From NCBI RefSeq assembly GCF_016722925.1, contig NZ_JAEQNC010000007.1, positions 124,001 through 188,000 on the forward strand: a stretch of 64,000 nucleotides of DNA. The letters run 5' to 3'. The notes beneath the pieces are model-generated. The model saw only the letters and a list, made by a program, of their open reading frames with translations. It was not told the DNA's origin and did not search any database. Below are positions 9,917 through 42,164 of the stretch, piece by piece. The stretch comes from Phytoamicus setariae. GTDB lineage: Bacteria; Pseudomonadota; Alphaproteobacteria; Rhizobiales; Rhizobiaceae. The first letter of the stretch is position 1. Each line of letters starts with the position of its first letter. The position numbers were made by a program, and so were the translations under genes.

Positions 9917-10227
9917 GGACGGTCTTCCGAACGCGTTGCGAAAAGCCACGTTGTACGCTTCCTTTTGAACAAGAAACCCCGAACTCAGACGTCGTTCAGA
10001 CAGCATGCGCCCAAGCGCACTCGGAACCGGAGTATCCCCGTTTTCGAGTGGCGCACAGCAGCTTTTCGTCGTGTTCAGAGGTTATTCCGGCCAAGCTTTC
10101 AAATTCGTTAAGGCAGCAGCAAATGTGATTTACTTCGAGACAACAAACAAAACTTCGCTGGAAAACCCAAATAACTTTCAGCGAATCTATCTATTGAAGC
10201 GTATAACCGAAATATAAACTTCGGCGT

Positions 10228-11061
10228 TCACCCGGCTTTTTTCTGTCGCCCCAGCAAGACTCTCATTTGGGACAGAGTGTCCAGATTCTGATTGACGCGA
10301 CAGTAGAACTCTTCATCGATAAATGGCCGCATCATGAAATCGTTACCGCCGGCCTTCAGGAATCGTGCCGAGAGCAGACGGTCCGTCGACGATGACACCC
10401 CGATGATCCGCAACTGGTGCGAACCGATATGCGCTCGAATTCGGCGCGTCAGTTCGAAGCCATCGATGTCAGGCATGTTGTAGTCGGTGATCATCAACGA
10501 AATGTCGCGGTTCGCCTTGAGGATCTCGAAAGCCTTGTGGCCGTTCTCCGCCGCGCTGACCTTGAAGTTGTAACGCTTCAGTCGAGTCGTCAGCAGGGCG
10601 CGCGCGGTCTGACTGTCGTCGACGATCAACACATGGTGATTGTGGTTGGTCAGGAACCGACAAACTGCTTCCACCAGCATATCGACGGCAAAAACGCTGT
10701 CCTTGATGATGTAATCGACAATCTGGTTCGACAGCAGCTTGTCGCGGGTCGTATCCTGCAATGTACCTGTGAACACGATGGTCGGAATTCCGACATCGAC
10801 AAGGTAGTCCAGGGCTTCGCCCTGCTCCGCACCCGGCAGATTGATGTTGGAAATCGCAAGCCGGATCGGCTCGTCGGACTTTTCGTTGGCCTTCTGCAAT
10901 TCCTCGAAATCACGGCAGATCTCGACGTCGATTTCGAGAAGCTCCTTGATCCGCTGACTGATCATCGATGTGAAGACGTTGGAATCCTCAGCAACGATAA
11001 TGCGGTTGCCCTTCAACGACACCCCGGAATAGTGCATTCCGGAAACTCCCAAGAAATCCAT
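10228..11061 (-). CDS. Double-REC response regulator without output domain
   Basis: 277 residues made of two receiver domains. REC1 (about 18-130) has lost the phosphoacceptor Asp, reading AISNIN at that strand, though it keeps the acidic pair (VAEDSN). REC2 (about 140-260) has the acceptor in MITDYNMPDIDG and acidic pair VDDSQ, but Arg replaces the usual Lys (MMRPF). No DNA-binding or enzymatic domain follows, so it probably acts by protein contact, for example on the neighbouring GGDEF protein, whose two REC domains are arranged alike. The ATG at 11061 is used; an ATG at 11037 has a better ribosome site (GGGAG) and is a real alternative. Gap 10007-10227 shows no gene. Confidence 0.85.
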   Translation of the reverse strand: MDFLGVSGMHYSGVSLKGNRIIVAEDSNVFTSMISQRIKELLEIDVEICRDFEELQKANEKSDEPIRLAISNINLPGAEQGEALDYLVDVGIPTIVFTGTLQDTTRDKLLSNQIVDYIIKDSVFAVDMLVEAVCRFLTNHNHHVLIVDDSQTARALLTTRLKRYNFKVSAAENGHKAFEILKANRDISLMITDYNMPDIDGFELTRRIRAHIGSHQLRIIGVSSSTDRLLSARFLKAGGNDFMMRPFIDEEFYCRVNQNLDTLSQMRVLLGRQKKAG

Positions 11062-27994: not shown

Positions 27995-28110
27995 GGCCGA
28001 CTGCACCCCGTCTTGGGATTGCTGCATCACCGGAAGACGATGCCCGCGAACCGGCGGTTGCGCGAGGTATTGTCCCGGCAGACAAACATTGACGTTGGGG
28101 GATGCCAACA

Positions 28111-29730
28111 ATGGATAACACGCTCAAGACCGGTGGGCTGGCTGTGGGGACATTCCTCGCGCTGCTGGCAGCCGGCTTCGCCCAGGACAGCCTTTTCAGG
28201 GCCCACATGGGTATCGCTTTCCTCTGCCTCGCGATCGGCACGATCCTGATGCTGCGCCGGGTGGATTTCTCCGCAAGCGCGACAAAAAAGGAAGAGTCCA
28301 AATCCGGCTACATGGATGAGGTCGTTCGTTACGGCGTGATCGCCACGACATTCTGGGGAATTGTCGGCTTTCTCGTCGGCGTGGTCGCCGCGCTGCAGCT
28401 TGCATTTCCCGATCTCAATATCGAACCGTGGCTGAACTTCGGGCGTCTGCGCCCGCTGCACACGTCTGCGGTCATTTTTGCCTTCGGCGGCAACGCCCTG
28501 ATCGCCACATCCTTCTATGTGGTACAGCGCACCAACCGGGTGCGGCTGTTCGGCGGCGACCTTGCCTGGTTCGTCTTCTGGGGCTACCAGCTGTTCATCA
28601 TCATGGCGGCGACCGGCTATCTGCTGGGCATTACCCAGAGCCGTGAATATGCCGAGCCGGAATGGTATGTCGACCTGTTCCTGACCATCGTCTGGGTCGC
28701 CTACCTCATCGTCTTTTTGGGCACGCTGATCACCCGCAAGGAACCACATATCTATGTGGCGAACTGGTTCTACCTCTCGTTCATCGTCACGATTGCGATG
28801 CTGCATGTGGTGAACAATCTTGCGGTGCCGGTATCGTTCCTGGGCGTGAAATCCTATTCGCTGTTTTCGGGCGTACAGGATGCTCTGACGCAATGGTGGT
28901 ATGGGCATAATGCGGTGGGCTTCTTCCTGACCGCCGGCTTCCTGGGAATGATGTACTATTTCGTCCCCAAGCAGGCCAATCGCCCTGTCTATTCCTACCG
29001 CCTGTCGATCATCCACTTCTGGTCGCTGATCTTCATGTACATCTGGGCCGGTCCGCACCATCTGCACTACACGGCGCTGCCCGATTGGGCCCAGACGCTC
29101 GGCATGGTGTTCTCGGTGATGCTCTGGATGCCGTCCTGGGGTGGCATGATCAACGGTCTGATGACGCTTTCCGGCGCCTGGGACAAGGTCCGCACCGATC
29201 CGATCATCCGCATGATGGTCATGGCGATCGCCTTCTATGGCATGTCGACGTTCGAAGGCCCGATGATGTCGATCAAGACGGTCAATTCGCTCAGCCACTA
29301 TACGGAATGGACCATCGGTCACGTACATTCCGGTGCACTCGGCTGGAACGGCCTGATCACATTCGGCGCACTCTACTATCTCGTGCCAAAGCTGTGGAAC
29401 CGCGAACGCCTCTACAGCATCCGCATGATCAACTGGCACTTCTGGCTGGCAACGATCGCCATCGTCATCTACGCGGCTGCTTTCTGGGTTGCCGGGATCA
29501 CGCAGGGCCTGATGTGGCGCGAATACAATAGTCAGGGCTTCCTGGTCTATTCCTTCGCCGAATCCGTCGCCGCGATGTTCCCCTACTACGTGCTTCGCAT
29601 TCTGGCTGGGGTCCTCTTCCTCGGTGGGGCACTGCTGATGGCCTACAACATTCTGATGACGATCTACGGTTACCAGCGCGATGAGGCGCCCCTCACGGGC
29701 GCTGCTCCCGCTGCCGTGCCGGCCGAATAA
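28111..29730 (+). CDS. ccoN: cbb3-type cytochrome c oxidase subunit I
   Basis: 539 residues and about 14 membrane helices. Conserved His ligands for heme b, heme b3 and CuB are in [47 protein letters not shown] and [11 protein letters not shown]. This is the catalytic subunit of the high-affinity oxidase used at low oxygen (also called FixN). ATG 28111 is preferred over 28102 because GGGGG sits directly before 28102 but 9 nt before 28111. First gene of ccoNOQP; an FNR box lies upstream. Confidence 0.95.
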
Positions 29731-29741
29731 GGAGGCGGACC

Positions 29742-30479
29742 ATGTCCATACTCGATAAACACGTAGTTTTCGAACGCAATGCGACGCTTCTGCTGGTCGG
29801 CTCCCTTCTGGTGGTCACCATCGGCGGCATCGTGGAAATCGCACCCCTCTTCTACCTTCAGAACACCATCGAGAAGGTGGAAGGGATGCGCCCATACTCG
29901 CCTCTGGAGCTGGAGGGTCGCAACATCTACATCCGCGAAGGCTGTTATGTCTGCCATAGCCAGATGATCCGTCCGTTCCGAGACGAGGTCGAACGCTACG
30001 GCCACTACTCGCTTGCGGCGGAATCGATGTACGACCATCCGTTCCAGTGGGGTTCCAAGCGCACGGGGCCAGATCTGGCACGCGTCGGCGGCCGTTACTC
30101 GAATGAGTGGCATGTGCAGCATCTGGTCGAGCCACGCGATGTCGTGCCTGAATCCATCATGCCAAGCTACTCGTTCCTGAAGAACACGGAGCTTGATCTG
30201 TCGACCTTCAACGTCGCCGGCAACCTCAAAGCCAACAAGGCAGTGGGCGTACCCTACACCGACGACATGCTGGCCAACGCAGAAGCCGACTTCAAGGCGC
30301 AGGCCGATCCGAATGCCGACACGGCAGGCCTGCTCGCGCGCTATCCCAAGGCCAAGGTGGGCGACTTCGACGGCAACCCGAAGAAGTTGACGGAGATGGA
30401 TGCGCTGGTCGCCTATCTGCAGATGCTCGGCAGTTTGGTCGACTTCTCGACCTACAATGACGCATCCGGTTACCGGTAA
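29742..30479 (+). CDS. ccoO: cbb3-type cytochrome c oxidase subunit II
   Basis: 245 residues. One N-terminal membrane helix ([20 protein letters not shown]) anchors a periplasmic mono-heme cytochrome c domain with [11 protein letters not shown]; the axial Met is probably in ESIMPSY. It passes electrons to CcoN. AAGGAGG precedes the ATG, 11 bp after ccoN. Confidence 0.95.
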
Positions 30480-30489
30480 GGAGGGCGCG

Positions 30490-30642
30490 ATGAGCACATA
30501 CGAAACCATGCGCCATTTCGCCGACAGTTGGGGAATGCTGGCCATGCTGATCTTCTTTGCAGGCTGCGTCGCCTTCATGTTCGTGCCGGGTGCGAAGAAA
30601 CGGGCCGATGAGGCTGCACAGATCCCGTTCAGGGAGGACTGA
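30490..30642 (+). CDS. ccoQ: cbb3-type oxidase small subunit
   Basis: 50 residues: MSTYETMRHFADSWGMLAML then IFFAGCVAFMFVPGAKKRA. One membrane helix and a short basic/acidic tail ending PFRED are typical of CcoQ (FixQ), which stabilises the complex. TAAGGAGGG overlaps the ccoO stop and precedes the ATG. Two bp separate it from ccoP. Confidence 0.93.
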   Translation: MSTYETMRHFADSWGMLAMLIFFAGCVAFMFVPGAKKRADEAAQIPFRED

Positions 30643-30644
30643 AA

Positions 30645-31505
30645 ATGTCAGAAAAACAAATCGATGAACTCTCTGGGGTGGAAACCACCGGTCATGAATG
30701 GGACGGCATCAAGGAACTCAACAATCCGATGCCGCGCTGGTGGCTGTGGACGCTTTATGCGACGATCGTCTGGTCGATAGGCTACACGATCGCCTACCCG
30801 GCGTGGCCGCTGGTCAGCGAAGCAACCAAAGGCATGCTCGGCTTCACCAGCCGCCAAGAACTGAAAACCGACATGCAGGCGGCAATCGACGCACAGAAGG
30901 TTTATGTCGACAAGATCGCCGCCATGCCGGTCAGCGACGTCGCCAAGGACCCGCAACTTGCCGAATTCGCCGTGAACGGTGGTGAGGCGGCTTTCAAAGT
31001 CAATTGCAGCACCTGTCACGGCACAGGCGCTGCTGGCATGGCGGGGTATCCCAACCTCAACGACAACGAATGGCTTTGGGGCGGTAGCATCGACGATATC
31101 TACAAGACGATCGTCCATGGGATTCGCAGCGACGATCCGGATACCCGGTTCTCGGAAATGCCTGCTTTCGCCGACATTCTCGACCCGGCCCAGACCAGGC
31201 AGGTTGCGGCCTATGTCGTGAGCCTTACCGGAACGCCCGCGGATGCGAGCATGATCGAGCCCGGCAAGAAGATCTACGCGGACAATTGCGCCTCGTGCCA
31301 CGGCGACAAGGCCGAAGGCAAACGCGAGTTCGGCGCGCCCAGCCTGGCCGACGCCATCTGGCTCAAGGGCGAAGGCGAGGACGCCATCATCCGTCAGGTC
31401 AGCACACCGCGTCACGGCGTCATGCCAGCCTGGGGACATCGCCTTAACGATGCCACCATCAAGCAGCTAGCCGTCTACATTCACTCACTCGGCGGCGGCG
31501 AGTGA
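30645..31505 (+). CDS. ccoP: cbb3-type oxidase diheme subunit III
   Basis: 286 residues. An N-terminal helix (WWLWTLYATIVWSIGYTIAY) is followed by two cytochrome c domains with CSTCH near residue 123 and CASCH near 219; axial Met candidates are FSEMPAF and GVMPAWG. It accepts electrons from cytochrome c. GGGAGGACTG precedes the ATG. It ends the ccoNOQP unit; a strong hairpin follows. Confidence 0.95.
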   Translation: MSEKQIDELSGVETTGHEWDGIKELNNPMPRWWLWTLYATIVWSIGYTIAYPAWPLVSEATKGMLGFTSRQELKTDMQAAIDAQKVYVDKIAAMPVSDVAKDPQLAEFAVNGGEAAFKVNCSTCHGTGAAGMAGYPNLNDNEWLWGGSIDDIYKTIVHGIRSDDPDTRFSEMPAFADILDPAQTRQVAAYVVSLTGTPADASMIEPGKKIYADNCASCHGDKAEGKREFGAPSLADAIWLKGEGEDAIIRQVSTPRHGVMPAWGHRLNDATIKQLAVYIHSLGGGE

Positions 31506-31527
31506 GTGCTCGACGAATTGATGAATT

Positions 31528-31558
31528 GAAGTGCCGGGCAGATAATGCCCGGCACTTC
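31528..31558 (+). terminator. ccoP terminator hairpin (copy 1)
   Basis: GAAGTGCCGGGCA-GATAA-TGCCCGGCACTTC, a perfect 13-bp stem 23 bp after the ccoP stop. No T run follows, so it may work as an mRNA-protecting hairpin. 27 of 31 bases match copy 2 at 31779-31809. Confidence 0.7.
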
Positions 31559-31561
31559 AGG

Positions 31562-31775
31562 CTGCTGACAAACCCCTGGCTTGGTCAACAGCCCCCCTAA
31601 GTGCGCGTACGACGCCGCCAGACTATCGAGAAGATCGCCATCGTCATGGCAGCAAGGCCATCACCAAGGGCCCCCTAGGCGGCTTCCCCTGAGCACCAGC
31701 ATAAAAACTCACACAAAACACCCATCATCCAAAAACGTAAAACCCCGCCTAAAAAATGACGGAGTTTGCCAGCAG
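31562..31775. repeat. About 214-bp segment with inverted ends, MITE-like candidate
   Basis: CTGCTGACAAAC at the left end and GTTTGCCAGCAG at the right end are inverted repeats with 11 of 12 matches. The segment has no ORF and lies between the two hairpin copies. It may be a small non-autonomous element or a remnant; no target duplication is proven. Confidence 0.4.
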
Positions 31776-31779
31776 TCAG

Positions 31780-31812
31780 AAGTGCCGGACAGATAGTGCC
31801 CGGCATTTTTTT
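31780..31812 (+). terminator. Rho-independent terminator (copy 2 of ccoP hairpin)
   Basis: AAGTGCCGGACA-GATAG-TGCCCGGCATTT pairs at 11 of 12 positions counting one G-U, and is followed by seven T residues in total. It is a diverged direct copy of the hairpin at 31528-31558 and looks like the true terminator. Confidence 0.7.
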
Positions 31813-32000
31813 GCTTGTTGGAAAGCTGTGACGCAAAACTCAGCAGTCAAATGTCGGCCTACCCGACGCTGGGCCTATGGGTCAAACGCCTGCGCTGCAG
31901 GGCTTTCCGACTTGATTGTGCTGACGCCTCCCATTAAAGGGAGGATCGAAATATACAGATGGTATTCTGGTCACAGACCATGACGAGCGAGGTGAATGGC

Positions 32001-32840
32001 ATGGCATTGCCTAACTTTATTTGCATTGGCGCCCAGAAAGCGGGGACGAGCTGGCTCTACCAGATGCTCATTCAACACCCCGATCTCTGGCTACCCCCCC
32101 TGAAAGAACTACATTTTTTTGATCGAAACGCGGCAAGCGAAAGTTCGAAAGAGGTGGTCCGCAAGTTGGTAGCCAAGGCCAAGCGCAAGTACCTTTCCAG
32201 AGCTGACCAAAGTTTTGATCAAGCAAAGCCATATTGGACCTATCTTGATTCTATCGCCGCCGAAGACATGCTAACGGAGACCTGGTACAAAAGAATTTTT
32301 GATTACCCCGGAGCATCGTCGAAAATTACAGGTGAGATTACGCCTGCTTATCTAGACATGAGGAAAAAGAAGTTAGCCTACGCAATGGACTTTCTTCCAA
32401 AGGAGACGAAGTTTATTGCGATTGTTAGAGAACCGCTCGCCAGAGCGCTGTCTCAAATTCGGATGTGGGCCGAAACAAAGAAGGTCACTCCAGCAACTGA
32501 ACAGGATTGGCAGGTCTTCATCGATCATCTGACGAAGGTGACGCGCGGGAACTATATGAAAAGCATTCCCATGTGGAACACCAAGGCCGGAAAGCACAGA
32601 ATACTTTATCTGCCGTTCTCCGACGTTCGGGATCGCCCCCAGGAACTCCTGGGAGCCGTCGAGGATTTTATCGGCGCGTCGCACTACGACGGCTATAAAG
32701 AAATCGACGAACAGGTGCATACTACGAAAAAGATCGCAATTCCTGAGTGGGTGACCAAAAAGGTGGAAGCCGACATTCAGCCCCAGCGGCGGTTCCTGAT
32801 TAATACGTTCGGCAATGAATTCTACGAAAAAACGAAATAG
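32001..32840 (+). CDS. Sulfotransferase family protein (1)
   Basis: 279 residues. The 5'-phosphosulfate loop of PAPS-dependent sulfotransferases is clear: FICIGAQKAGTSWLYQML at residues 5-22. FDRNAASESS follows, and the 3'-phosphate site is probably FIAIVREPLARALSQIRM near 137-154. It would transfer sulfate from PAPS to a carbohydrate or lipid-linked sugar. No membrane helix is seen, so action is cytoplasmic. ATG 32001 is preferred for GAGGTG 8 nt upstream; 31980 and 31959 are alternatives. The gene is visibly more AT-rich than cco genes. It opens the island and is the only member of its strand until 35.5 kb. Confidence 0.85.
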   Translation: MALPNFICIGAQKAGTSWLYQMLIQHPDLWLPPLKELHFFDRNAASESSKEVVRKLVAKAKRKYLSRADQSFDQAKPYWTYLDSIAAEDMLTETWYKRIFDYPGASSKITGEITPAYLDMRKKKLAYAMDFLPKETKFIAIVREPLARALSQIRMWAETKKVTPATEQDWQVFIDHLTKVTRGNYMKSIPMWNTKAGKHRILYLPFSDVRDRPQELLGAVEDFIGASHYDGYKEIDEQVHTTKKIAIPEWVTKKVEADIQPQRRFLINTFGNEFYEKTK

Positions 32841-32869
32841 TACCGACGGCGCATGATCCAGGTAGCAAG

Positions 32870-32907
32870 CCCGCCAAGTCCAAGAACTGGAAATTTGACT
32901 TGGCGGG
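32870..32907. terminator. Convergent-gene hairpin CCCGCCAAGTC / GACTTGGCGGG
   Basis: A perfect 11-bp stem with a 16-nt loop lies between the stops of the sulfotransferase and GSCFA genes. No T run; a bidirectional terminator is the likeliest role. Confidence 0.5.
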
Positions 32908-32924
32908 AGAGCCTGACGCCCTGA

Positions 32925-34127
32925 TCAGATCGCTGCCAGCACCTTGTTGGCAATACCGTTAGGCGCCTCTTCAGCCATTTCGGCCATCACGCCCTTAATT
33001 AGTTCGAGGTCTGCGTCGTCACTCTTCTTCTTGTGTCGTTCGATAATCCTGACAGCTTTATCGAAGTCGTTTTGCTTGAGGGCCTGGAGAAGGTTGTTCG
33101 GCAACGCACCTGTTGCCGAAAGGGCCAGGAACCAAGCACGGTTCAACGACATTTGCAGAGTTGAATTCTTGCACCAAACGCTTTCAAACAACGTCATGAC
33201 GAAGTCCAGTACCTCCTTCTTGACATGACGCCGGTCCTCCAGCCACACATTTTCAAACAGGTCCAAGACTATCTCATAAGAAGGCCAATAATAAGCAAAC
33301 TCCTCTTCGCTGCGTTCGCGGAGAACTTCATCGAGTGCTGCGCGCAATATAGACTTCGAGACCGAATTCGCAGTCATGCACGAGTTCGGTCGAAACGTTG
33401 CCACGAGCGGAATTGGTGAAAGTGTGAATATTACCTTTGCATTTGGCTTGTATTTCTTTATTATATCTATAATTGCGCGAATATTATTCTTATTTTCTTC
33501 TACCGAGCTGACCCGAAATTTATGGCGTGACGCATCATATTTGCTTAACGGGACCGCGCGCCAGAAAACGCCTCCGGTAACTTCGTCATACCAAATTTCG
33601 GACAAACCAAGCGTAATTATAAAAAGGTCGGCAGAGTTGAAGAGATTGGCGGTTTCCTGCCTCACGTCTTCGCTGTATCCAAACTCCTGCGCATCATATC
33701 CGTGCCACAGCGCCTCCTCGAACCTCTTGCCTTCGAAGGCCCATTCGAACTGCTGACGAATTACGAAGGTGTTCACCATTCCTTCGCCAAAGCGCACCAC
33801 GTAGGAGGAGGATTTGCTCTCCTCCCTATCGGTCAGCACGCTGTAATTTCGTTTGGCGAGCCAACGCGTTATATTGGAGGCGAAACAACTGCCAAAGGCG
33901 ACCACTTTGGTCTCTTTCTTGATGAAAGCATCCTGCGGCTCCCAACCCTTGACGACAAATTTCAAAGCAGAATCAGCGCCGCGCAAATTGGCAAGCTTGG
34001 GATTGAAGTTGCTATTCTCGCCTCTGAACCACGTATGGCTTCCCGCCTGCTTATGGCCGTCAATTTCGAATTTGATCTGCTTCTCGCCCTGACCATCCAT
34101 ATCAAGTCGTACTAGCTTTTTTTGCAT
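32925..34127 (-). CDS. GSCFA domain protein
   Basis: 400 residues. VVAFGSCFASNITRWL near residue 75 gives the family name motif (PF08885, GSCFA), followed by NTFVIRQQFEWAF, LFIITLGLSEIWYD and VIFTLSPIPLVATF. The GSCFA family resembles SGNH hydrolases in having a G-S-C-F block, NxF.h and a downstream TLG/P-V segment; members occur in polysaccharide loci and may act as acyl esterases or acyltransferases. The C-terminal 70 residues are a helical extension. No signal peptide. The coding sequence is notably AT-rich. ATG 34127 follows GGGGAATGGG; 34142 is possible. The function is not known. Confidence 0.82.
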   Translation of the reverse strand: MQKKLVRLDMDGQGEKQIKFEIDGHKQAGSHTWFRGENSNFNPKLANLRGADSALKFVVKGWEPQDAFIKKETKVVAFGSCFASNITRWLAKRNYSVLTDREESKSSSYVVRFGEGMVNTFVIRQQFEWAFEGKRFEEALWHGYDAQEFGYSEDVRQETANLFNSADLFIITLGLSEIWYDEVTGGVFWRAVPLSKYDASRHKFRVSSVEENKNNIRAIIDIIKKYKPNAKVIFTLSPIPLVATFRPNSCMTANSVSKSILRAALDEVLRERSEEEFAYYWPSYEIVLDLFENVWLEDRRHVKKEVLDFVMTLFESVWCKNSTLQMSLNRAWFLALSATGALPNNLLQALKQNDFDKAVRIIERHKKKSDDADLELIKGVMAEMAEEAPNGIANKVLAAI

Positions 34128-34237
34128 GATCCCATTCCCCATAGACCCTTGTAAGACGTCTATACCAGAGTGGTATTGGCTCAACAATTGCTAATACTTT
34201 TCATCCAAACAAGAAGTACTGCGTGTGTTCTGCCGAG

Positions 34238-35296
34238 CTAACCGCCTTCCGAAGCCTTCGCTTCATCTTGCATCAGACGCCAAAGCATCTCGAAGTCGCC
34301 CTGCTCGGCCTGTGGTCGGATTGAAAGAACTGAATTTGCAATTGCCTTTCGAAAGGCGCCTGTCACCTCCGCGGGAATATTGTAGTCGGGCTCGGCTTCG
34401 ATCAAATCAGACCGAGGGTTGAAAAAGGCCGGATCAAACCCAAACTGCTCGGCAAGCTTGAAGTTCGAGTCCTGGAAATGCTCAAGAATAATCCTCCGCT
34501 CTGCCCGGGTCATCGGCATGGCGGGCTGCCCTCGCATATCGGCAGGAAGGGCTTCCCATGCTTTCAACAAGATCGCGTGAAGCGGATCCGTACGAAGCTT
34601 GGATGGTTCCGCCAGCGCATTCAATCGTGTCTGAAACTTGTACATCTCGGCAGATACACTGCTGTTCACGAAGTGACCGGGAAGGTCTTCGGCAAGGTGC
34701 GAATCGAGATCCGTTGCCAGAAGAAACTGCTTCAACACACCTTTGGATCGCTCGTAGAGGTGCGGCACGAATGTTGCCCTCGGGAACTTCTCATTCAGCA
34801 GCAAAGCCATCTGATGATAGTTCGCGTCCGGAGGGTATCGTCGAACCATTTCTTTTTTGGGAACGGCTTTGGCGCCATGCTTAACATTCTGAACCCTGAT
34901 CGATGCCATATATTGGTCCTGGCGGCGTATCCAGGACAGAAACCTTACCTCATCGAACAGATCCAGCACCGGGCACATTTCATCGAGCATCTCGGGGCTG
35001 CGAGAAAAATTTAGACTAAAGAGCTCCGAGGAGATGAGGAACTTTTCGTGATGAGAGTTTTTCACGAACTGAGCAACGTCCTGCCAAAGCTGTCCCCAGC
35101 GCTCGGAATGTTTATAATTTGCAAGGGGATGATGCGCTAGCGGCGCATCGCCTGAAACGAGCTTCTGGCGCTCAAGGCCAACCGGCAGAAAAACAATGTT
35201 GCCGAATATGCCTTGACGCATGGTTTGCGTAACGAGCGACTGAATTGCGCTGCTGCCCGTCTTGCGCCATCCGATATGCATGTAAAGGGTCTTCAC
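34238..35296 (-). CDS. Sulfotransferase-like protein (2)
   Basis: 352 residues. The N-terminus reads LYMHIGWRKTGSSAIQSLV, a phosphate-binding loop like HxGxxKTGTT of bacterial sulfotransferase-like proteins. VRFLSWIRRQDQYMAS near residue 120 fits the 3'-phosphate (IRRQ-x-S) region. The rest is weakly conserved to my eye. A GTG at 35296 with GAGGGAAG upstream is preferred to a TTG at 35320. Same strand as the GSCFA gene, 110 bp before it, so the two are likely cotranscribed. Acceptor unknown. Confidence 0.7.
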   Translation of the reverse strand: MKTLYMHIGWRKTGSSAIQSLVTQTMRQGIFGNIVFLPVGLERQKLVSGDAPLAHHPLANYKHSERWGQLWQDVAQFVKNSHHEKFLISSELFSLNFSRSPEMLDEMCPVLDLFDEVRFLSWIRRQDQYMASIRVQNVKHGAKAVPKKEMVRRYPPDANYHQMALLLNEKFPRATFVPHLYERSKGVLKQFLLATDLDSHLAEDLPGHFVNSSVSAEMYKFQTRLNALAEPSKLRTDPLHAILLKAWEALPADMRGQPAMPMTRAERRIILEHFQDSNFKLAEQFGFDPAFFNPRSDLIEAEPDYNIPAEVTGAFRKAIANSVLSIRPQAEQGDFEMLWRLMQDEAKASEGG

Positions 35297-35561
35297 CGAC
35301 GCTTCCCTCGATTGCTTCAACAGTTGAGTTCCGGCCCCTGCATTTTCGCCAGCTGGACGCCCTCATCTTGGGGATTAGCGCATAGGCGAACCCACCACAA
35401 GTGTAGCCACAAAGCCGCCAATCCACAGTCTTCGGCCCGAATGAAACTGCTACACCAGCGAATCCGTATACAAAGGCGTTCCAGCTTGAATTCAGCGTTT
35501 CTCTCCTGTAAAGCCGCTCCTCACGACCCTGCCAGGGGCATAGATTAAGAGCGAGCAGGAC

Positions 35562-36602
35562 ATGAGTGAAAACACAGCTCCAGTTGATGTAAGCGTGATC
35601 GTCAGGACCAAGGATAGACCGGTTCTGCTGGGGCGTGCGCTAAAATCTCTAGCGGCGCAAACGTCGCGAAAATTCGAGGTTATCATCATCAACGACGGCG
35701 GCGACGCCTCCGTTGTAGAGAACATCCTCGCAGGTGTTCGCCTGCCGGAATATCTGTTGACCAGCAATGACGAGAGCATCGGCCGAGCAAAAGCGTTCAA
35801 CCAGGCGCTGCGCATGGCAAGGGGTGAGTTCGTCGCATGCCTGGATGACGATGACACATACGAACCCAAGTTCATTGAAAATATGGCCTACTGGCTTCAG
35901 CATGAGATTAGGCATGACCGATCGACTGCTGGCCTTATCTGCCGCTGTTTGGAGGTCTACGAGGAGCTTCAGGACTCGGGCGGGCGCAACTATCTCCATG
36001 AAAACACCGGCATAAAGCAGGTGAAAACCGAGGTCCTGCACGAGTACAACAGTGCCAACACCTACATTTCCCCCTACTTCTACTATGTTGGGAGAGAAAA
36101 TTTCCTGCCGGTCCAGACTTTGTTTCGGCGGTCTGTCTTGATGGAATTTGGCGGTTTCTCCGAAAAGAACGATGTTCTCGAGGATCGCCCGGTTTATAAC
36201 AAGATCCTTTCGACCCATAGGGTCGCCGTACATGATGAGGTTCTTGCTAACCATCACACCCGGGTGTCCAAGAATGGTGACGCGCATTCCAATTCGATGC
36301 ACGACAACATGAGCTACAATTGGGGGCGCAAGTTCGCTGAGTTCTATACGAGCGGATATTACGACAAGCAGCAAGCCGAAACTTTTCAATTTGCCTTTGT
36401 AAGGGATGCGCTTCTCGACCTGAAATGGGATCTCACGAGCACCAAAATGCGGCGACAGGAATTCGATTCCCTGTGGCAAAACCTGTGGAGACTCATCCGT
36501 CGTAACAAGCTAACCAGTTTCGTCGTCTGGCTTGTTTTCGTATTGTCCATGATCACCTATTCTGCAATCGGTACCGCTCTCGTTCTGTATTTCAACTCCT
36601 GA
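35562..36602 (+). CDS. Family 2 glycosyltransferase with C-terminal membrane anchor
   Basis: 346 residues. The GT-A fold starts VDVSVIVRTKDRPVLLGRAL, with EVIIINDGGDAS for nucleotide binding and ECLDDDD-like metal motif VACLDDDDTYEPKFIENM near residue 90. VLEDRPVYNKI near 205 may be the catalytic ED region. The last 30 residues form one membrane helix (SFVVWLVFVLSMITYSAIGT), so it is tail-anchored at the inner membrane. It probably adds a sugar to a lipid-linked or membrane glycan that the neighbouring sulfotransferases modify. Intergenic 35297-35561 has only promoter space for two divergent units. Confidence 0.87.
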   Translation: MSENTAPVDVSVIVRTKDRPVLLGRALKSLAAQTSRKFEVIIINDGGDASVVENILAGVRLPEYLLTSNDESIGRAKAFNQALRMARGEFVACLDDDDTYEPKFIENMAYWLQHEIRHDRSTAGLICRCLEVYEELQDSGGRNYLHENTGIKQVKTEVLHEYNSANTYISPYFYYVGRENFLPVQTLFRRSVLMEFGGFSEKNDVLEDRPVYNKILSTHRVAVHDEVLANHHTRVSKNGDAHSNSMHDNMSYNWGRKFAEFYTSGYYDKQQAETFQFAFVRDALLDLKWDLTSTKMRRQEFDSLWQNLWRLIRRNKLTSFVVWLVFVLSMITYSAIGTALVLYFNS

Positions 36603-36643
36603 ACCCGCGGTAATCACTAAAATAGAACAACTGGAGCATGGAA

Positions 36644-37408
36644 ATGGCGCGAGAGAATGTAGCCGATATCTTGTGTGTCGGCACACAGAAAGCCGGAACG
36701 AGCTGGTTGCATACGATGTGCAACATTCACCCCAAGACTTACTCGTTTCCAAATCGTCGTCCCATAACGAGCACGAACAAGGAAGCCCACTTCTTCGACT
36801 GGAATCCATACAAGGGTGTCGACTGGTATCGTGAACTGCTGACGCCAGGCGGCCCGGACAAGTTGAGCATGGACTTTACGCCGGAATATTCCCTGCTGAC
36901 ACGCGGACATATCAAGCTTTGCCGGAGCCTGAGCCCGTCTGCAAAAGTCTTCTATATCCTTCGCGATCCTGTTGCCCGGGCTGTAAGTGCACTGCGCATG
37001 CACTATCTCTGGCAGGAGTCGGCAGAAGACAGCGTCGTCGAGATTCTATTCGATGACAAGTTCCTGAAAATATTTCAGGAAGCAAGGATCATGAACTTTT
37101 CCGGCTACGTCGCAGCCGCTTCGCTATGGCGCGAGTTCTACCCGAATATGCATATTCTGAACTACGAGGACACACTGTCTGATCCCAAGAAGTTCATCCT
37201 CGACGTTTGGGGTAAGATCGGCCTTGAGTGGGCAGAACTTGATGACGAAAAGGAAGACCTCTTCGGAAAGAAACTCGTGACGAAAGTCTGGGAAACGAAG
37301 AAATATTTCGTCGCCCCTCAGGTTTATGACTATTTGAATACCGTTCTTCGTCCCCACAAGGAATATTCGGAACGGGAATTCGGCCTCAAGTTCGCAGAGC
37401 TTGGCTGA
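36644..37408 (+). CDS. Sulfotransferase family protein (3)
   Basis: 254 residues. LCVGTQKAGTSWLHTM near residue 10 is the PAPS 5'-phosphosulfate loop, and VFYILRDPVARAVSALRMHY near 102 the 3'-phosphate motif (RDPxxRxxS). KEAHFFDWN matches the corresponding segment of sulfotransferase 1, so they are related but diverged. It follows the glycosyltransferase by 41 bp; CTGGAG sits before ATG 36638, and 36644 gives better spacing. Role: sulfation of a sugar made in this locus, inferred from context. Confidence 0.86.
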   Translation: MARENVADILCVGTQKAGTSWLHTMCNIHPKTYSFPNRRPITSTNKEAHFFDWNPYKGVDWYRELLTPGGPDKLSMDFTPEYSLLTRGHIKLCRSLSPSAKVFYILRDPVARAVSALRMHYLWQESAEDSVVEILFDDKFLKIFQEARIMNFSGYVAAASLWREFYPNMHILNYEDTLSDPKKFILDVWGKIGLEWAELDDEKEDLFGKKLVTKVWETKKYFVAPQVYDYLNTVLRPHKEYSEREFGLKFAELG

Positions 37409-37801
37409 CTGAAGCTCAGACGCCACTCCCATGGAAATGGAGGGTGGCGTCCGTATGATCTTGCTCGCTCGGTTTTCTCGAGCTGACGCAATTGCACGGG
37501 TGTAATAGCACCTCATAGACAATATCAGCGCTTGATATGGCCTTCACGCGCAGACAAGCGCCCGGGGTTTCGAATGCGCTCAGGTGACCAAAACAGGTCG
37601 GGCCTGCACTGAGGGACGGAGTACACGAACCGGGCCAGAAGAGATACAATCGATCATTCGTCCGGTTCCGAAGGGCATTTGTTTCAGCGATTTCGTTTCA
37701 CAAAATGACAGCATGCTTTAAGGTGTGCCGCACGTTGACTTAGATCAAGGCACATTGCCCTGCCACCGTTAAGACAGGCCCAATGCAGAAGGGTCGATGT
37801 A
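37409..37801. other. Gene-free stretch before ccoG
   Basis: 393 bp. An imperfect hairpin (GACGCCAC / GTGGCGTC, 37419-37451) after the sulfotransferase stop is a terminator candidate. The FNR box lies at 37735-37748. I see no ORF with support between them and no transposon end. Confidence 0.6.
37735..37748 (+). promoter_or_regulatory. FNR box TTGAC-TTAG-ATCAA (ccoG)
   Basis: Nine of ten consensus positions match. It is centred 60 bp before the ccoG ATG, so with activation at -41.5 the leader would be near 20 nt. It shows that ccoGHIS has its own low-oxygen promoter, independent of ccoN. Confidence 0.82.
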
Positions 37802-39385
37802 ATGGGTCTCCACGAAAACCTCGCCAAAACAGATGGTTCTGACATAGAGCGGCTGGATGCCTCTCCCGTCAACTCGGCCAAAGTGCGCCAGCCGCTTTAT
37901 GCGCCGCGCAAGAAAATCCATCCGAAACGGGCAGAAGGCAAATTCCGCCAGTTCAAATGGATCGTGATGGCGATCACACTCGGTATCTACTATCTCGCCC
38001 CGTGGATTCGCTGGGACCGCGGCGATCATGTCCCGAACCAGGCCATCCTGCTCGATGTTGCCGATCGGCGCTTCTATTTCTTCTTCATCGAAATCTGGCC
38101 GCAGGAATTCTATTTCGTCGCCGGCTTACTGATCATGGCTGGGCTCGGGCTCTTTCTCGTCACGTCCGCGGTCGGCCGAGCATGGTGCGGCTACACCTGT
38201 CCCCAGACAGTCTGGGTGGACCTGTTCCTCGTCGTCGAACGAGCAATCGAGGGTGACCGGAATGCCCGCATCAAACTCGATTCCACGCCATGGACACCGG
38301 ACAAGATCGTCAAGCGGGTATCCAAACACGCGATATGGCTATTGATCGGCGTCCTCACCGGCGGCGCCTGGATCTTCTACTTTGCCGACGCGCCGACGCT
38401 TCTGCATGATCTGGTAACCTTCCACGCACCGGCGATCGCTTACCTGACTGTCGCCATCCTGACCGCCACCACCTATGTGTTCGGTGGGCTGATGCGTGAA
38501 CAGGTCTGTACCTACATGTGCCCCTGGCCGCGCATTCAGGGAGCGATGCTCGACGAAAATTCGCTTGTCGTTACCTATAACGACTGGCGGGGCGAACCAC
38601 GCTCGCGCCACGCCAAGAAGGTGGCTGCGGCAGGAGAAACCGTGGGCGATTGCGTCGATTGCAACGCCTGCGTCGCCGTTTGTCCCATGGGCATCGACAT
38701 TCGCGACGGCTTGCAGATGGAATGCATCACCTGCGCGCTCTGTATCGATGCCTGCGACGGGGTGATGGATAAAGTGGGGCACGAAAAGGGGTTGATCGGC
38801 TACTCGACCCTGTCCGACTATACCCACAACATGCTGCTTGCGACGGCGGACTATACCGTTCCGATCAATCCGGCACTTGTGCGCGGCACCGATGGCGGAT
38901 TCGACAAGAACGTCAGACACTTCCGTTGGCAGGTCATTTTCCGGCCGCGCATCATCCTCTATACGGTTCTGTGGTCGCTGGTCGGCATCGGCCTGCTGGT
39001 CGCACTCGGAATCCGTGATCGCCTGCAGCTTGACGTCCTGCACGATCGAAATCCCCAGTTTGTGATGGAGTCGGACGGCTCTATCCGCAATGGTTACACG
39101 ATCAAGATCCTCAACATGCGGCCGGAGCCGCGCCGGTTCGTGCTGTCTGTACGTGACCTGCCGGGCGCCACCATGACGATTGCCGGCGAGACCTGGTCCC
39201 AGGGCCGCTTTTTCGGCGTCGATGTCGAGGCCGATGCTGTGAAAACAATGAAGATCTATGTTACCGTTCCGAAGGCTGAATTGCCCGCCGCAAACCGCGA
39301 ATTCACCTTCCATGTCGAATATCCGCAAACAGGGGAGTCTCACAAATACAAGTCGAGCTTCATTGTACCGGAGAAAAAGAGATGA
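37802..39385 (+). CDS. ccoG: CcoG/FixG cytochrome oxidase accessory ferredoxin-type protein
   Basis: 527 residues and about five membrane helices. WCGYTCPQTVW and YMCPWPRIQG are hallmark segments; two [4Fe-4S] sites follow as CVDCNACVAVCP and CITCALCIDAC. The C-terminal 120 residues are a periplasmic Ig-like domain (FixG_C). CcoG reduces Cu(II) to Cu(I) for the cbb3 oxidase copper site. First gene of ccoGHIS, with its own FNR box; its stop overlaps ccoH by ATGA. Confidence 0.95.
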   Translation: MGLHENLAKTDGSDIERLDASPVNSAKVRQPLYAPRKKIHPKRAEGKFRQFKWIVMAITLGIYYLAPWIRWDRGDHVPNQAILLDVADRRFYFFFIEIWPQEFYFVAGLLIMAGLGLFLVTSAVGRAWCGYTCPQTVWVDLFLVVERAIEGDRNARIKLDSTPWTPDKIVKRVSKHAIWLLIGVLTGGAWIFYFADAPTLLHDLVTFHAPAIAYLTVAILTATTYVFGGLMREQVCTYMCPWPRIQGAMLDENSLVVTYNDWRGEPRSRHAKKVAAAGETVGDCVDCNACVAVCPMGIDIRDGLQMECITCALCIDACDGVMDKVGHEKGLIGYSTLSDYTHNMLLATADYTVPINPALVRGTDGGFDKNVRHFRWQVIFRPRIILYTVLWSLVGIGLLVALGIRDRLQLDVLHDRNPQFVMESDGSIRNGYTIKILNMRPEPRRFVLSVRDLPGATMTIAGETWSQGRFFGVDVEADAVKTMKIYVTVPKAELPAANREFTFHVEYPQTGESHKYKSSFIVPEKKR

Positions 39386-39876
39386 ACCAGAAAGCCGCCG
39401 CCAAGGGCACCTTCACCGGCTGGCACATGTTCGCCATCATGATTGCGTTTTTCGGCACGATCATCGCGGTCAACAGCCTCATGGCCTATTATGCCAGCGC
39501 CAGCTGGAGCGGCCTTCTGGCCAAGAACACATACGTCGCCAGCCAGGACTTCAACCTGAAGGCGGAGGAAGCCCGCGAGTGGGCAAGCCGTGGCTTCAAG
39601 GGCAGGCTCGAAGTCGATGCCGAATCGGTGCGCTACCAGCTTGAAGGCCCGGCTGCGGAAATCGACGCCCTCAAGTCGGTGACCGCGCTGTTTCACCGCC
39701 CGGTCGGCTACCGGCAGGATTTCGAACTTGAGCTGAAGAAAGATGCAAACGGCATCTTTACAGCCGAGCACGCGTTGGCGTCCGGCCAGTGGATCGTCGA
39801 CCTGGCCTCTGTCGAGCATGGCAAGACGATTTACCACCAGGCAACCCGGATCACCATTTCGGACACATCGCCATGA
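39382..39876 (+). CDS. ccoH: CcoH/FixH cbb3 assembly protein
   Basis: 164 residues with one N-terminal helix (WHMFAIMIAFFGTIIAVNSL) and a small periplasmic domain ending GQWIVDLASVEHGKTIY, the FixH layout. It associates with the maturing cbb3 complex. Overlaps ccoG and ccoI by 4 bp each. Confidence 0.94.
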   Translation: MNQKAAAKGTFTGWHMFAIMIAFFGTIIAVNSLMAYYASASWSGLLAKNTYVASQDFNLKAEEAREWASRGFKGRLEVDAESVRYQLEGPAAEIDALKSVTALFHRPVGYRQDFELELKKDANGIFTAEHALASGQWIVDLASVEHGKTIYHQATRITISDTSP

Positions 39877-42164
39877 GCTGCTGCGCGCCCGGCACCGAAG
39901 GTGCGTTGCAACGAGACGGATCGGCAAATCTCCCGAGCGGCGAAGAACTGTGGCTTTCTTCGCGCGACCTCGGCAACGGCCTTCGCCAACTGGATCTCGG
40001 CGTCCCCGAGGTCCATTGCGGCACCTGCATCACCACGATTGAAAGTGCGTTGCGCAAGCTCCCCGAAGTCGACCGCGCCCGCGTGAACCTGTCGACCAAG
40101 CGTGTTTCAATCGTCTGGCGGGAGGTCACGGGAGATCAGCCATCGGACCCGAGCGTCATCGCGACCGCCATCGCATCGACGGGCTATAGCGCCCACCTTT
40201 TCCAGGATCTTGCCGAACAGGGCGATGCATTGCGCAACCAGTTGCTGCGCGCCGTGGCGGTAGCGGGATTTGCCGCAACCAACATTATGCTGCTTTCCGT
40301 CTCGGTCTGGTCTGGCGCGGATGCCGCGACACGCGATCTCTTTCACTGGATTTCGGCGATGATCGCCGCCCCTGCCCTTGTCTATTCCGGCCGGTTCTTT
40401 TTCCGCTCCGCCTGGACCGCACTCAGGCACGGCCACACCAACATGGACGTGCCGATTTCGCTGGCGGTTATCCTCTCCTATGGTGTCTCGCTCTACGAGA
40501 CGATGAACCACGGCGAACACGCCTGGTTCGATGCCACCGTCTCGCTGCTGTTCTTCCTGCTGATCGGCCGCACCCTCGACCACCTGATGCGTGATCGCGC
40601 CCGTTCGGCGGTGGTTGGCTTGGCGCGGCTGTCGCCGCGCGGGGCGATGGTCGTCTCGACCGACGGCGCACGCGAGTATCGCCCCGTCAATGAAATCCGT
40701 CCCGGAGTCCGCCTGCTTATCTCAGCCGGAGAGCGCATCGCCGTCGATGGCACTGTAATATCAGGTACGAGCGACATCGACTGGTCGATCGTCAACGGCG
40801 AAAGCACGCCCGTCGCGGCGAAAACTGGTGACAAGCTGCTGGCCGGCACACTCAACCTCACAGGCTCGCTCACCATCGAAGCTGCCGCCGAGGCCAGAAA
40901 CTCATTCCTCGCAGAGATTATTTCACTGATGGAGGCCGCAGAAGGCGGCAAGGCACGTTACCGCCGGATCGCCGATCGAGCCGCACAACTCTACTCGCCG
41001 GTCGTGCACTTGTTAGCGGCTCTGTCCTTCATTGGCTGGGGCTTGGCCAACGGCGACTGGAAGCACGCAATGCTGGTTGCTGTGGCCGTGCTCATCATCA
41101 CCTGCCCCTGCGCGCTGGGGCTTGCAGTACCGGTTGTCCAGGTCATTGCCGCCGGCCGGCTGTTCAAGAGCGGCATCATGGTCAAGGATGGCTCTGCTAT
41201 GGAGCGGCTTGCCGAGACAAACACGATTTTCTTCGACAAGACTGGCACGCTGACGCTTGGCCGGCCCCGGCTGCGCAATGCCGCGGAAATCGATACGGCA
41301 AGCTTTGCGATCGCAGCCGGGCTGGCTGCCCATTCGCGTCATCCGCTGTCGCGCGCGCTGGCCTCTGCCTGCCCGGTTGATGCCCAGGCGTTCGACAATG
41401 TTCAGGAAATCGCTGGCGGCGGGCTGCAGGCAACTGCCGTCGATGGCATCTGGAGGCTTGGAAACCGCCGCTTTGCATTGGGCGATACTCAGGCCGATGA
41501 GCACGGCGGGGCTTTTTCGGAAGTCATCCTGTCCCGCGACTTTCAGCCAGTAGCCGCCTTTAACCTCGAAGATGCGACAAGACCTGAAGGCGCAGATACC
41601 ATCACGCAGCTCAAGGCCGACCGGTTCGAAACGGCCGTGCTGTCCGGCGACCGCGAAGCTGTCGTTGCCCGGCTTGCCCGCAGCCTCGGCATCAACAACT
41701 GGACCGCTGGCCTCGACCCGCAAGGCAAGGTCGATGCGATCCGCAAGGCCAGCGAAGGTGGCGCAAAGGTGCTGATGGTCGGCGACGGCATCAACGATGC
41801 GCCGGCGCTCCGGACGGCCCACGTCTCGATGGCGCCCTCCACTGCCGCCGATGTCGGCCGGCAGGCCGCCGATTTCGTCTTCATGCGCGAAGGCCTGAGT
41901 GCCGTGACGTTGTCGATCGACATCTCCAAACGCGCCGGAAAATTGATCCGGGAAAACTTCGCTCTTGCCATCGGCTACAATGTCATCGCCGTACCGATCG
42001 CGATCCTCGGCTACGCAACGCCGCTGATTGCAGCCATCGCCATGTCGACCTCATCGATCATCGTCGTCGTCAATTCTCTCAGGCTCAATCGCCTTTCGCA
42101 CGGGGATGCGCCGCGCACGGATCGTCAGGCGCAGGCCGAAACAGGTGGAGTGCTCGCAACATGA
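39873..42164 (+). CDS. ccoI: CcoI/FixI copper-transporting P-type ATPase
   Basis: 763 residues. MSCCAPG near the start and VHCGTCITTIE (CxxC in the heavy-metal domain) bind copper; later features are membrane CPCALG, phosphorylation DKTGTLT and hinge GDGINDAPAL. It exports Cu(I) towards the cbb3 oxidase rather than for resistance. The ATG at 39873 overlaps the ccoH stop (ATGA), which decides the start over an upstream frame. Confidence 0.95.
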   Translation: MSCCAPGTEGALQRDGSANLPSGEELWLSSRDLGNGLRQLDLGVPEVHCGTCITTIESALRKLPEVDRARVNLSTKRVSIVWREVTGDQPSDPSVIATAIASTGYSAHLFQDLAEQGDALRNQLLRAVAVAGFAATNIMLLSVSVWSGADAATRDLFHWISAMIAAPALVYSGRFFFRSAWTALRHGHTNMDVPISLAVILSYGVSLYETMNHGEHAWFDATVSLLFFLLIGRTLDHLMRDRARSAVVGLARLSPRGAMVVSTDGAREYRPVNEIRPGVRLLISAGERIAVDGTVISGTSDIDWSIVNGESTPVAAKTGDKLLAGTLNLTGSLTIEAAAEARNSFLAEIISLMEAAEGGKARYRRIADRAAQLYSPVVHLLAALSFIGWGLANGDWKHAMLVAVAVLIITCPCALGLAVPVVQVIAAGRLFKSGIMVKDGSAMERLAETNTIFFDKTGTLTLGRPRLRNAAEIDTASFAIAAGLAAHSRHPLSRALASACPVDAQAFDNVQEIAGGGLQATAVDGIWRLGNRRFALGDTQADEHGGAFSEVILSRDFQPVAAFNLEDATRPEGADTITQLKADRFETAVLSGDREAVVARLARSLGINNWTAGLDPQGKVDAIRKASEGGAKVLMVGDGINDAPALRTAHVSMAPSTAADVGRQAADFVFMREGLSAVTLSIDISKRAGKLIRENFALAIGYNVIAVPIAILGYATPLIAAIAMSTSSIIVVVNSLRLNRLSHGDAPRTDRQAQAETGGVLAT

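Follow-up and report, generated by a model that had tools for sequence, protein, structure and literature searches.

A candidate accessory module for polysaccharide sulfation between the cbb3 oxidase operons of Phytoamicus setariae

Introduction

Why should probable genes for the sulfation and extension of a glycan interrupt a respiratory locus? This question is raised by a 64,000-nucleotide stretch of the Phytoamicus setariae genome (contig NZ_JAEQNC010000007.1, positions 124,001 to 188,000; "the window" denotes this whole analysed stretch). In it, the cbb3 oxidase genes ccoNOQP and ccoGHI are separated by 6296 bp (31506–37801), which hold five complete and intact reading frames. A preliminary description, made from the sequence alone, had regarded this gap as a transferred sulfation and glycosylation island with a role in a sulfated surface glycan and no obvious link to respiration. 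Based on the present analysis, we lean modestly towards the view that the 6.3 kb is an accessory module, acquired in the cco gap, which adds sulfate and sugar, and perhaps acyl groups, to an exported capsule-like polysaccharide.

Gene content and enzyme families

The genes of the island are as follows, where PAPS stands for 3'-phosphoadenosine 5'-phosphosulfate.

31959–32840, plus strand: ST1, PAPS-type sulfotransferase of the genus capsule-locus subfamily (PF13469, 3e-14; PF00685, 6e-14)
32925–34187, minus strand: GSCFA protein (SGNH clan), putative O-acyl hydrolase or transferase (PF08885, 1.1e-42)
34238–35320, minus strand: ST3-like, diverged sulfotransferase-like protein (remote profile homology, PDB 3rnl, 1.6e-8)
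35562–36602, plus strand: GT2 glycosyltransferase with a DDDD motif and a C-terminal membrane segment (PF00535, 5.4e-19; hydropathy)
36638–37408, plus strand: ST2, PAPS-type sulfotransferase (PF00685, 4.6e-15)

Pfam, profile searches and hydropathy confirmed all the families and motifs named in the preliminary description, which were two PAPS-type sulfotransferases, a sulfotransferase-like protein, a GSCFA protein and a tail-anchored glycosyltransferase. For Sulfotransfer_1 and Sulfotransfer_3 (cut-offs 27 and 22 bits), ST1 scored 54.2 and 52.5 bits and ST2 scored 56.1 and 43.2 bits. When the two proteins were aligned with nine related sulfotransferases, G24, K27, T30, R157 and S165 were invariant across the 11 rows, and we take the G-x-x-K-x-G-T P-loop-like and R...S motifs of this alignment to be those that bind PAPS. 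The profile of the ST1 family matched 31 distinct PDB sequences up to 1e-3, the best being heparan sulfate 3-O-sulfotransferase 3A1 (8.7e-21). ST2 matched heparan sulfate 3-O-sulfotransferase 1 by phmmer (2.2e-12), with an aligned E-x-HFFDW stretch whose glutamate is presumably the catalytic base in that enzyme. By these matches, ST1 and ST2 are PAPS-type sulfotransferases, and their predicted acceptor is a sugar.

The ST3-like protein gave no Pfam or NCBIfam match, and single-sequence phmmer against solved structures also returned none. A profile of this protein and 11 remote homologues (17–23% identity) matched PDB 3rnl, a bacterial sulfotransferase of solved structure, at 1.6e-8, and 7d1x at 3.7e-4. 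Owing to the match to 3rnl, the earlier label of this third gene as sulfotransferase-like holds. Among the 12 aligned members, K20, R132 and S140 are conserved or nearly so, and matches to curated sulfotransferase families were weak (best 0.0012); profile-to-profile comparison with the ST1 family gave a probability of 92.8%.

The GSCFA protein covers positions 1–237 of the 237 in PF08885. S100 and D318 are invariant in 11 of 11 aligned rows, and H321 is present in every row that reaches that position. This S100 and D318-x-x-H321 pattern is as expected for an SGNH enzyme, and the putative O-acyl role is our guess. The accessible part of a review of SGNH enzymes lists the GSCFA family without known activity and without a solved structure (PMC9487903). 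Single-sequence structure models were poor, with a mean pLDDT (predicted local distance difference test) of 36.4 for the ST3-like protein and 40.5 for the GSCFA protein. The C-terminus of the GT2 protein is hydrophobic (Kyte-Doolittle 2.13 over 19 residues from 324). Since the genome has an adenosine 5'-phosphosulfate (APS) kinase, with one match inside a 649-aa open frame, PAPS can be made.

ST1 and the GSCFA gene are convergent with 84 bp between them. The ST3-like and GSCFA genes are 50 bp apart, the GT2 and ST2 genes are 35 bp apart, and these two pairs diverge from a 241-bp gap. The gene order and strands suggest three transcription units.

The preliminary description had claimed a higher AT content for the island and proposed checking its GC and codon use. 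This was borne out by a GC of 0.512 in the gap against 0.591 in the whole window, and by GC at third codon positions of 0.587–0.637 in the five island genes against 0.725–0.794 in ccoN, ccoO, ccoP, ccoG, ccoH and ccoI. Inserts at the same site in three other genomes of the genus (G004, G002 and G001, below) are also GC-poor relative to their own loci (0.549 against 0.580, 0.540 against 0.567 and 0.549 against 0.583, respectively). Accordingly, low GC marks the class of glycan-sulfation genes as much as recent arrival.

Other kinds of mobile cargo were considered and rejected. There is no tRNA in the window and no integrase-like gene among the five by Pfam, and a tRNA-borne integrative island was rejected. 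PADLOC gave zero matches for the five genes, so anti-phage defence cargo was rejected; phage cargo was rejected because the PHROGs matches were only to general glycosyltransferases, for GT2.

The ccoP–ccoG gap in relatives

We kept the best 80 of at least 590 cco loci from relatives, and 76 were measurable, the remaining four having no ccoP match before ccoG. The ccoP–ccoG distance was at most 400 bp in 58 of the 76 and above 400 bp in 18 (largest 4892 bp). Fourteen further loci from outside the genus (13 from the same family, one from the same order) included 10 of at most 400 bp and a largest gap of 3291 bp. One of the 14 is possibly from the same organism as one of the 80, as their contigs are equally long (L043 and L137). 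The earlier statement that the cco halves are normally contiguous therefore stands as a tendency but not as a universal rule. Seven of the larger gaps were inspected by reading frames, and none held an island homologue.

The genus set comprised nine genomes, from G000 (that of the window) to G008, and ccoG was found in all except G003 and G006 (81% complete). The gap is short in G008 (164 bp), G005 (187 bp) and G007 (524 bp), and four genomes carry 6.2–7.4 kb in it, namely G004 (6181 bp), G002 (7409 bp), G001 (about 6530 bp) and the window's own (6296 bp). The G004 insert encodes a Core-2/I-branching glycosyltransferase (1.3e-19), a Glyco_tranf_2_4 protein (1.6e-28) and a Sulfotransfer_3 protein (1.4e-15), and the same three genes are present in G001 and G002. 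An extra first gene, sulfotransferase-like with no Pfam match, stands in the G004 and G002 inserts. The right part of the insert differs among the three genomes, each with weak, below-cut-off sulfotransferase matches; that of G001 includes a polysaccharide pyruvyl transferase (28.9 bits, above cut-off). The G004 and G002 inserts are 79% identical over the first 4.95 kb and match again in the last 90 bp, with no match between. No nucleotide similarity of the window insert to those of G001, G002 and G004 was found at 1e-5. These partial matches, and the absence of any to the window insert, indicate that the ccoP–ccoG site turns over.

The second insert has a home elsewhere in the genus. A KpsE-like gene and a Branch glycosyltransferase gene are present in all nine genomes. 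In six of them (G000, G003, G005, G006, G007 and G008), the glycosyltransferase and sulfotransferase block of this insert lies within a KpsMTE-like capsule-export locus, between the glycosyltransferase gene GTA475 and the sulfotransferase-like gene STp2. In G001, G002 and G004, about 0.6 kb separates GTA475 from STp2, and the block is found at cco instead. The window's genome has the block at kps and the separate five-gene set at cco. The KpsMTE-like locus (in the relatives, and on contig C12 of G000) gave above-cut-off matches to Wzz (27.2 bits) and ABC2_membrane (38.9 bits), and 23.5 bits for ABC_tran, whose cut-off is 25.

Two further observations concern these loci. Two more sulfotransferase-like genes of the LHIGAHKTATTY type, with no Pfam match, flank the capsule block in the genus (L191, 8877–9803 and 14190–15161). 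Some genes of the cco and capsule loci are broken in the G001 and G005 drafts: the ccoG, Branch, Glyco_tranf_2_4 and KpsE genes of G001 (L051, L236) and the Branch gene of G005 (L235) are split, by true breaks or sequencing errors.

When the island and block proteins were searched by tblastn against 100 cco loci, 97 had no homologue and the only matches were in G001, G002 and G004. The five-gene set was at cco in none of the six congeners having ccoG. Comparison with close relatives thus did not give the picture that would argue against recent insertion, in which all of them carry the five genes with normal composition.

In the tree of the cco locus, G007 groups with G001, G002 and G004 (support 0.999), and G000 joins them (support 0.555). 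As the sister of the three genomes with the block at cco is G007, which carries the block at kps and has a short cco gap, we infer that the block moved from kps to cco. Considering this placement together with the missing nucleotide match, the window insert and that of G001, G002 and G004 are best read as two events. Most likely, and as the simplest reading, the ccoP–ccoG gap received glycan-sulfation genes at least twice in the genus, independently.

Origin and kinship of the island genes

ST1 is 47% identical to the capsule-locus sulfotransferase of its own genome, 46% to that of G006, 45% to G003, 48% to G008, 44% to G005 and 35% to G007. It had matches in 17 of 199 family genomes, the best outside the genus being 30%. 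With its closest matches inside the genus, ST1 comes probably from the genus's own gene pool; its phylogeny gave no firm placement. Two relatives of ST1 stand elsewhere. G002 has a lone sulfotransferase, 47% identical and with a GC of 0.47, among unrelated genes (L192, G002 contig C18 43000–62000, at 9172–10011). The conjugative plasmid pTH2b of Rhizobium sp. TH2 (L241, 7716–8870) carries one with 35% identity, about 7 kb from ccoN with small hypothetical genes between.

Homologues of the ST3-like, GT2 and GSCFA proteins were not found in the genus capsule locus. GSCFA matches occurred in 26 of the 199 family genomes, the window's own included, and the strong others were seven at 46–51% identity, or one at 37%. 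Two plasmid-borne GSCFA relatives, from Pontibrevibacter (48.5%) and Polaromonas (52.2%), lie amid polysaccharide genes, the former also near a sulfate adenylyltransferase/APS kinase gene. Solitary GSCFA genes with a GC below their surroundings, like single-gene cargo, were also seen at unconnected sites in several Rhizobiaceae (L190, on contig C32 of G000, 9102–10238; L194, L195, L197, L198 and L199).

The ST3-like protein had matches in two of the 199 family genomes (its own and one at 1.2e-4) and in 10 of 299 phylum genomes, its own included (best other 7.2e-9). For GT2 at the strict limit of 1e-40, the only one of 385 class genomes was its own. No donor was found for the ST3-like or GT2 genes in these family, phylum and class genomes, and ST2 was not searched for by itself. 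The proposed acquisition by transfer is thus upheld as an insertion of low-GC genes between operons that normally lie close together, but a distant donor was not shown, and the closest matches of ST1 are within the genus.

Left edge of the island and control of the cco operons

The edges of the island and the flanking operons show the following features.

28102–31505, plus strand: ccoNOQP (ccoP matches Pfam Cytochrome_CBB3 and FixP_N; the ccoN and ccoP order recurs in relatives)
28102–29730 and 29742–30479, plus strand: ccoN and ccoO, by position and translation, with ccoP at 30645–31505 and a putative ccoQ between ccoO and ccoP
31528–31557: hairpin after ccoP, copy 1, without a T run (14-bp stem; minimum free energy z-score -5.9 for 31506–31600)
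31557–31780: IS1182-type remnant with two terminal inverted repeats and no transposase frame (end matches to a G001 element)
31779–31808: copy 2 of the same hairpin, with seven T directly behind it; it is presumably the original terminator (from the repeat and the sequence)
37735–37748, plus strand: FNR/FixK-type box TTGAC-N4-ATCAA before ccoG (four in the window against 0.19 expected)
37802–42164, plus strand: ccoG, ccoH and ccoI (Pfam FixG_C, FixH, and E1-E2_ATPase with HMA)

The two 30-bp hairpin copies are 90% identical and 251 bp apart; they are the only two matches in the window, with none in 100 shuffles. Compared with the end of an element on contig C4 of G001, the remnant differs at one of 20 positions in 31557–31576 and at three of 20 in 31761–31780. 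The transposase pieces of the G001 element match DUF772 and DDE_Tnp_1_6, and from these domains we take both the element and the remnant to belong to the IS1182 family. By eye, the element end adjoins a hairpin-like palindrome also in G001 and where two contigs of G002 begin. No second copy of the element end was found at the right edge (up to 5 mismatches) or within the G001, G002 and G004 inserts. Since both element ends lie left of ST1 and none at the right edge, a composite transposon or other IS-borne island was rejected. The remnant marks the ccoP–ccoG site as a target, without proving delivery of the genes.

According to the available portion of its report, IS1272 (IS1182 family) takes hairpins as its insertion sites, in most cases those of terminators (PMC4923244). 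The likeness to IS1272/TnSha1 is that the element ends in the window sit at a terminator-like hairpin; the difference is that, in the same portion, IS1272 deletes part of the hairpin without duplication, whereas the hairpin is present twice here (PMC4923244).

The other three FNR/FixK-type boxes of the window are found before hemN and around the hemerythrin–ccoN gap and the ccoN start (26015, 27293 and 27981). Such a box precedes ccoG in five of seven congeneric gaps, so ccoNOQP and the ccoG operon are, on sequence grounds, probably transcribed separately. None occurs within 31506–37734, and the box-free island therefore speaks against oxygen control shared with the cco operons. No island gene fits respiration either; we rejected such a link, in agreement with the preliminary description.

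Proposed role and alternative explanations

As we infer it from sequence, the module would work as follows. PAPS from the genome's own APS kinase would serve ST1, ST2 and probably the ST3-like protein, which would sulfate the sugars of a cytoplasmic polysaccharide, either during its growth or once it is complete. GT2, tethered to the membrane, would add a sugar, the GSCFA protein would add or remove an O-acyl group, and the product would leave through the KpsMTE-like exporter, whose genes lie elsewhere in the genome. Regarding its history, the ancestor of G001, G002 and G004 would have gained the glycosyltransferase and sulfotransferase block of the capsule locus at cco, and the window lineage another set. 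The left edge would once have held an IS1182-type element, whose family reportedly targets terminator hairpins. The hairpin at the end of ccoNOQP and the separate box before ccoG may explain why the insertion was tolerated.

The role in a sulfated surface glycan is thus supported indirectly, in that the other insert at the site is a block kept at the capsule locus in six genomes and ST1 belongs to the sulfotransferase subfamily of that block. The earlier suggestion of an undescribed system was not sustained: the families are known and genes for polymer synthesis and export are missing, so that the island looks like an accessory module. Several observations weigh against our reading. Three transcription units on two strands are unlike one operon, and the island itself holds no polymerase, exporter or PAPS gene. 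Relatives of the GSCFA protein (45–50% identity) in six Rhizobiaceae loci, inspected by eye, mostly stand alone among unrelated genes. All of the remnant is to the left of the five genes, so that it does not show how they arrived. Scans for promoters and terminators did no better than on shuffled sequence, and hairpin copy 2 is absent from the terminator scan list. The box pattern is unmatched in the ccoP–ccoG gaps of G005 and G008, and the node that unites G000 with the G007 group has a support of only 0.555.

The acceptor might instead be a non-capsule glycan (lipopolysaccharide (LPS) O-antigen or core, exopolysaccharide or glycoprotein), with shared enzyme ancestry as the only link to the capsule locus. 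Beyond the ST1 subfamily, the window insert shares no block gene with that locus, and LPS sulfation by LpsS is known in rhizobia, according to the accessible part of one report (PMC12445080). We consider this possible but doubtful, considering that what occupies this site in G001, G002 and G004 is the capsule-locus block and that ST1 is 44–48% identical to the capsule-locus enzymes of five genomes against 30% in the best family genome outside the genus. Lipids or small molecules as acceptors, or little-used transferred cargo without a lasting role, appear improbable to us. The Sulfotransfer_1 and Sulfotransfer_3 families have broad substrates and the inserts turn over fast between sister species, but most of the best structural matches of the ST1 profile and of ST2 are to heparan sulfate sulfotransferases, the two genes stand together with those of a glycosyltransferase and a GSCFA protein, and all five frames are intact.

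The number of insertions could also be read differently, as one ancient insertion between ccoP and ccoG in a common ancestor, which gave way to another insert in one line and disappeared from G007. G000 does join G007 and the three block-carrying genomes in the cco tree, though at 0.555, and the varying right half of the G004, G002 and G001 inserts indicates that replacement happens there. On the other hand, the 524-bp gap of G007 has no visible remnant and its block is kept at kps, and the gaps of G005 and G008 are short; a single insertion therefore seems unlikely. An assembly artefact, or ordinary vertical neighbours, can hardly be entertained. The assembly is a draft of 37 contigs, but the island is well inside a contig of 314,853 bp, and in three congeners, where this site is occupied too, intact ccoP and ccoG genes flank the insert on a single contig.

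Going beyond the accessory module that we favour, the ccoP–ccoG gap might be a dedicated exchange site for capsule sulfation modules, where terminator-seeking IS1182-type elements move blocks from the capsule locus to a safe position between two independent microoxic operons, so that the surface charge can change while the exporter locus is left untouched. We offer this as a speculative and rather unlikely extension.

Comparison with known systems and implications

The sulfated, ABC-transporter-dependent capsule locus of Vibrio sp. KMM 8419 resembles the genus in combining sulfotransferases, glycosyltransferases and a kps exporter, with PAPS made via APS kinase, as far as the available text of that study goes (PMC11641403). 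Compared with that text, the sulfation genes of the window differ in lying apart from the exporter, between respiratory operons, and without PAPS genes of their own (PMC11641403). LpsS of Sinorhizobium meliloti is alike in that a single encoded sulfotransferase sulfates a rhizobial surface glycan; in the accessible part of the source it is tabulated as a Stf0-family sulfotransferase, whereas ST1 and ST2 are of Sulfotransfer_1/3 (PMC12445080). Heparan sulfate 3-O-sulfotransferases (PDB 1zrh, 1t8t) share the PAPS-binding parts and the E-x-HFFDW stretch; the match of ST1 and ST2 to them is distant and local. The GSCFA protein keeps the full-length domain, the S and the D-x-x-H of its family as outlined in the accessible part of the review, and its role here is a guess (PMC9487903). 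We found no publication in the open-licence literature on sulfation genes at the ccoP–ccoG site. The families are known, and their arrangement at cco is new to us.

If the proposed reading is true, a capsule tailoring block left its home locus with its gene order intact and settled in a respiratory locus, and the nine genomes of one genus offer a natural series of empty site, block and other set. The island would provide five candidate genes for sulfating a surface polysaccharide of the rhizobial type, among them one for a GSCFA protein and one from a sulfotransferase-like family that escapes recognition by Pfam. A search for capsule functions limited to the kps locus would miss such genes.

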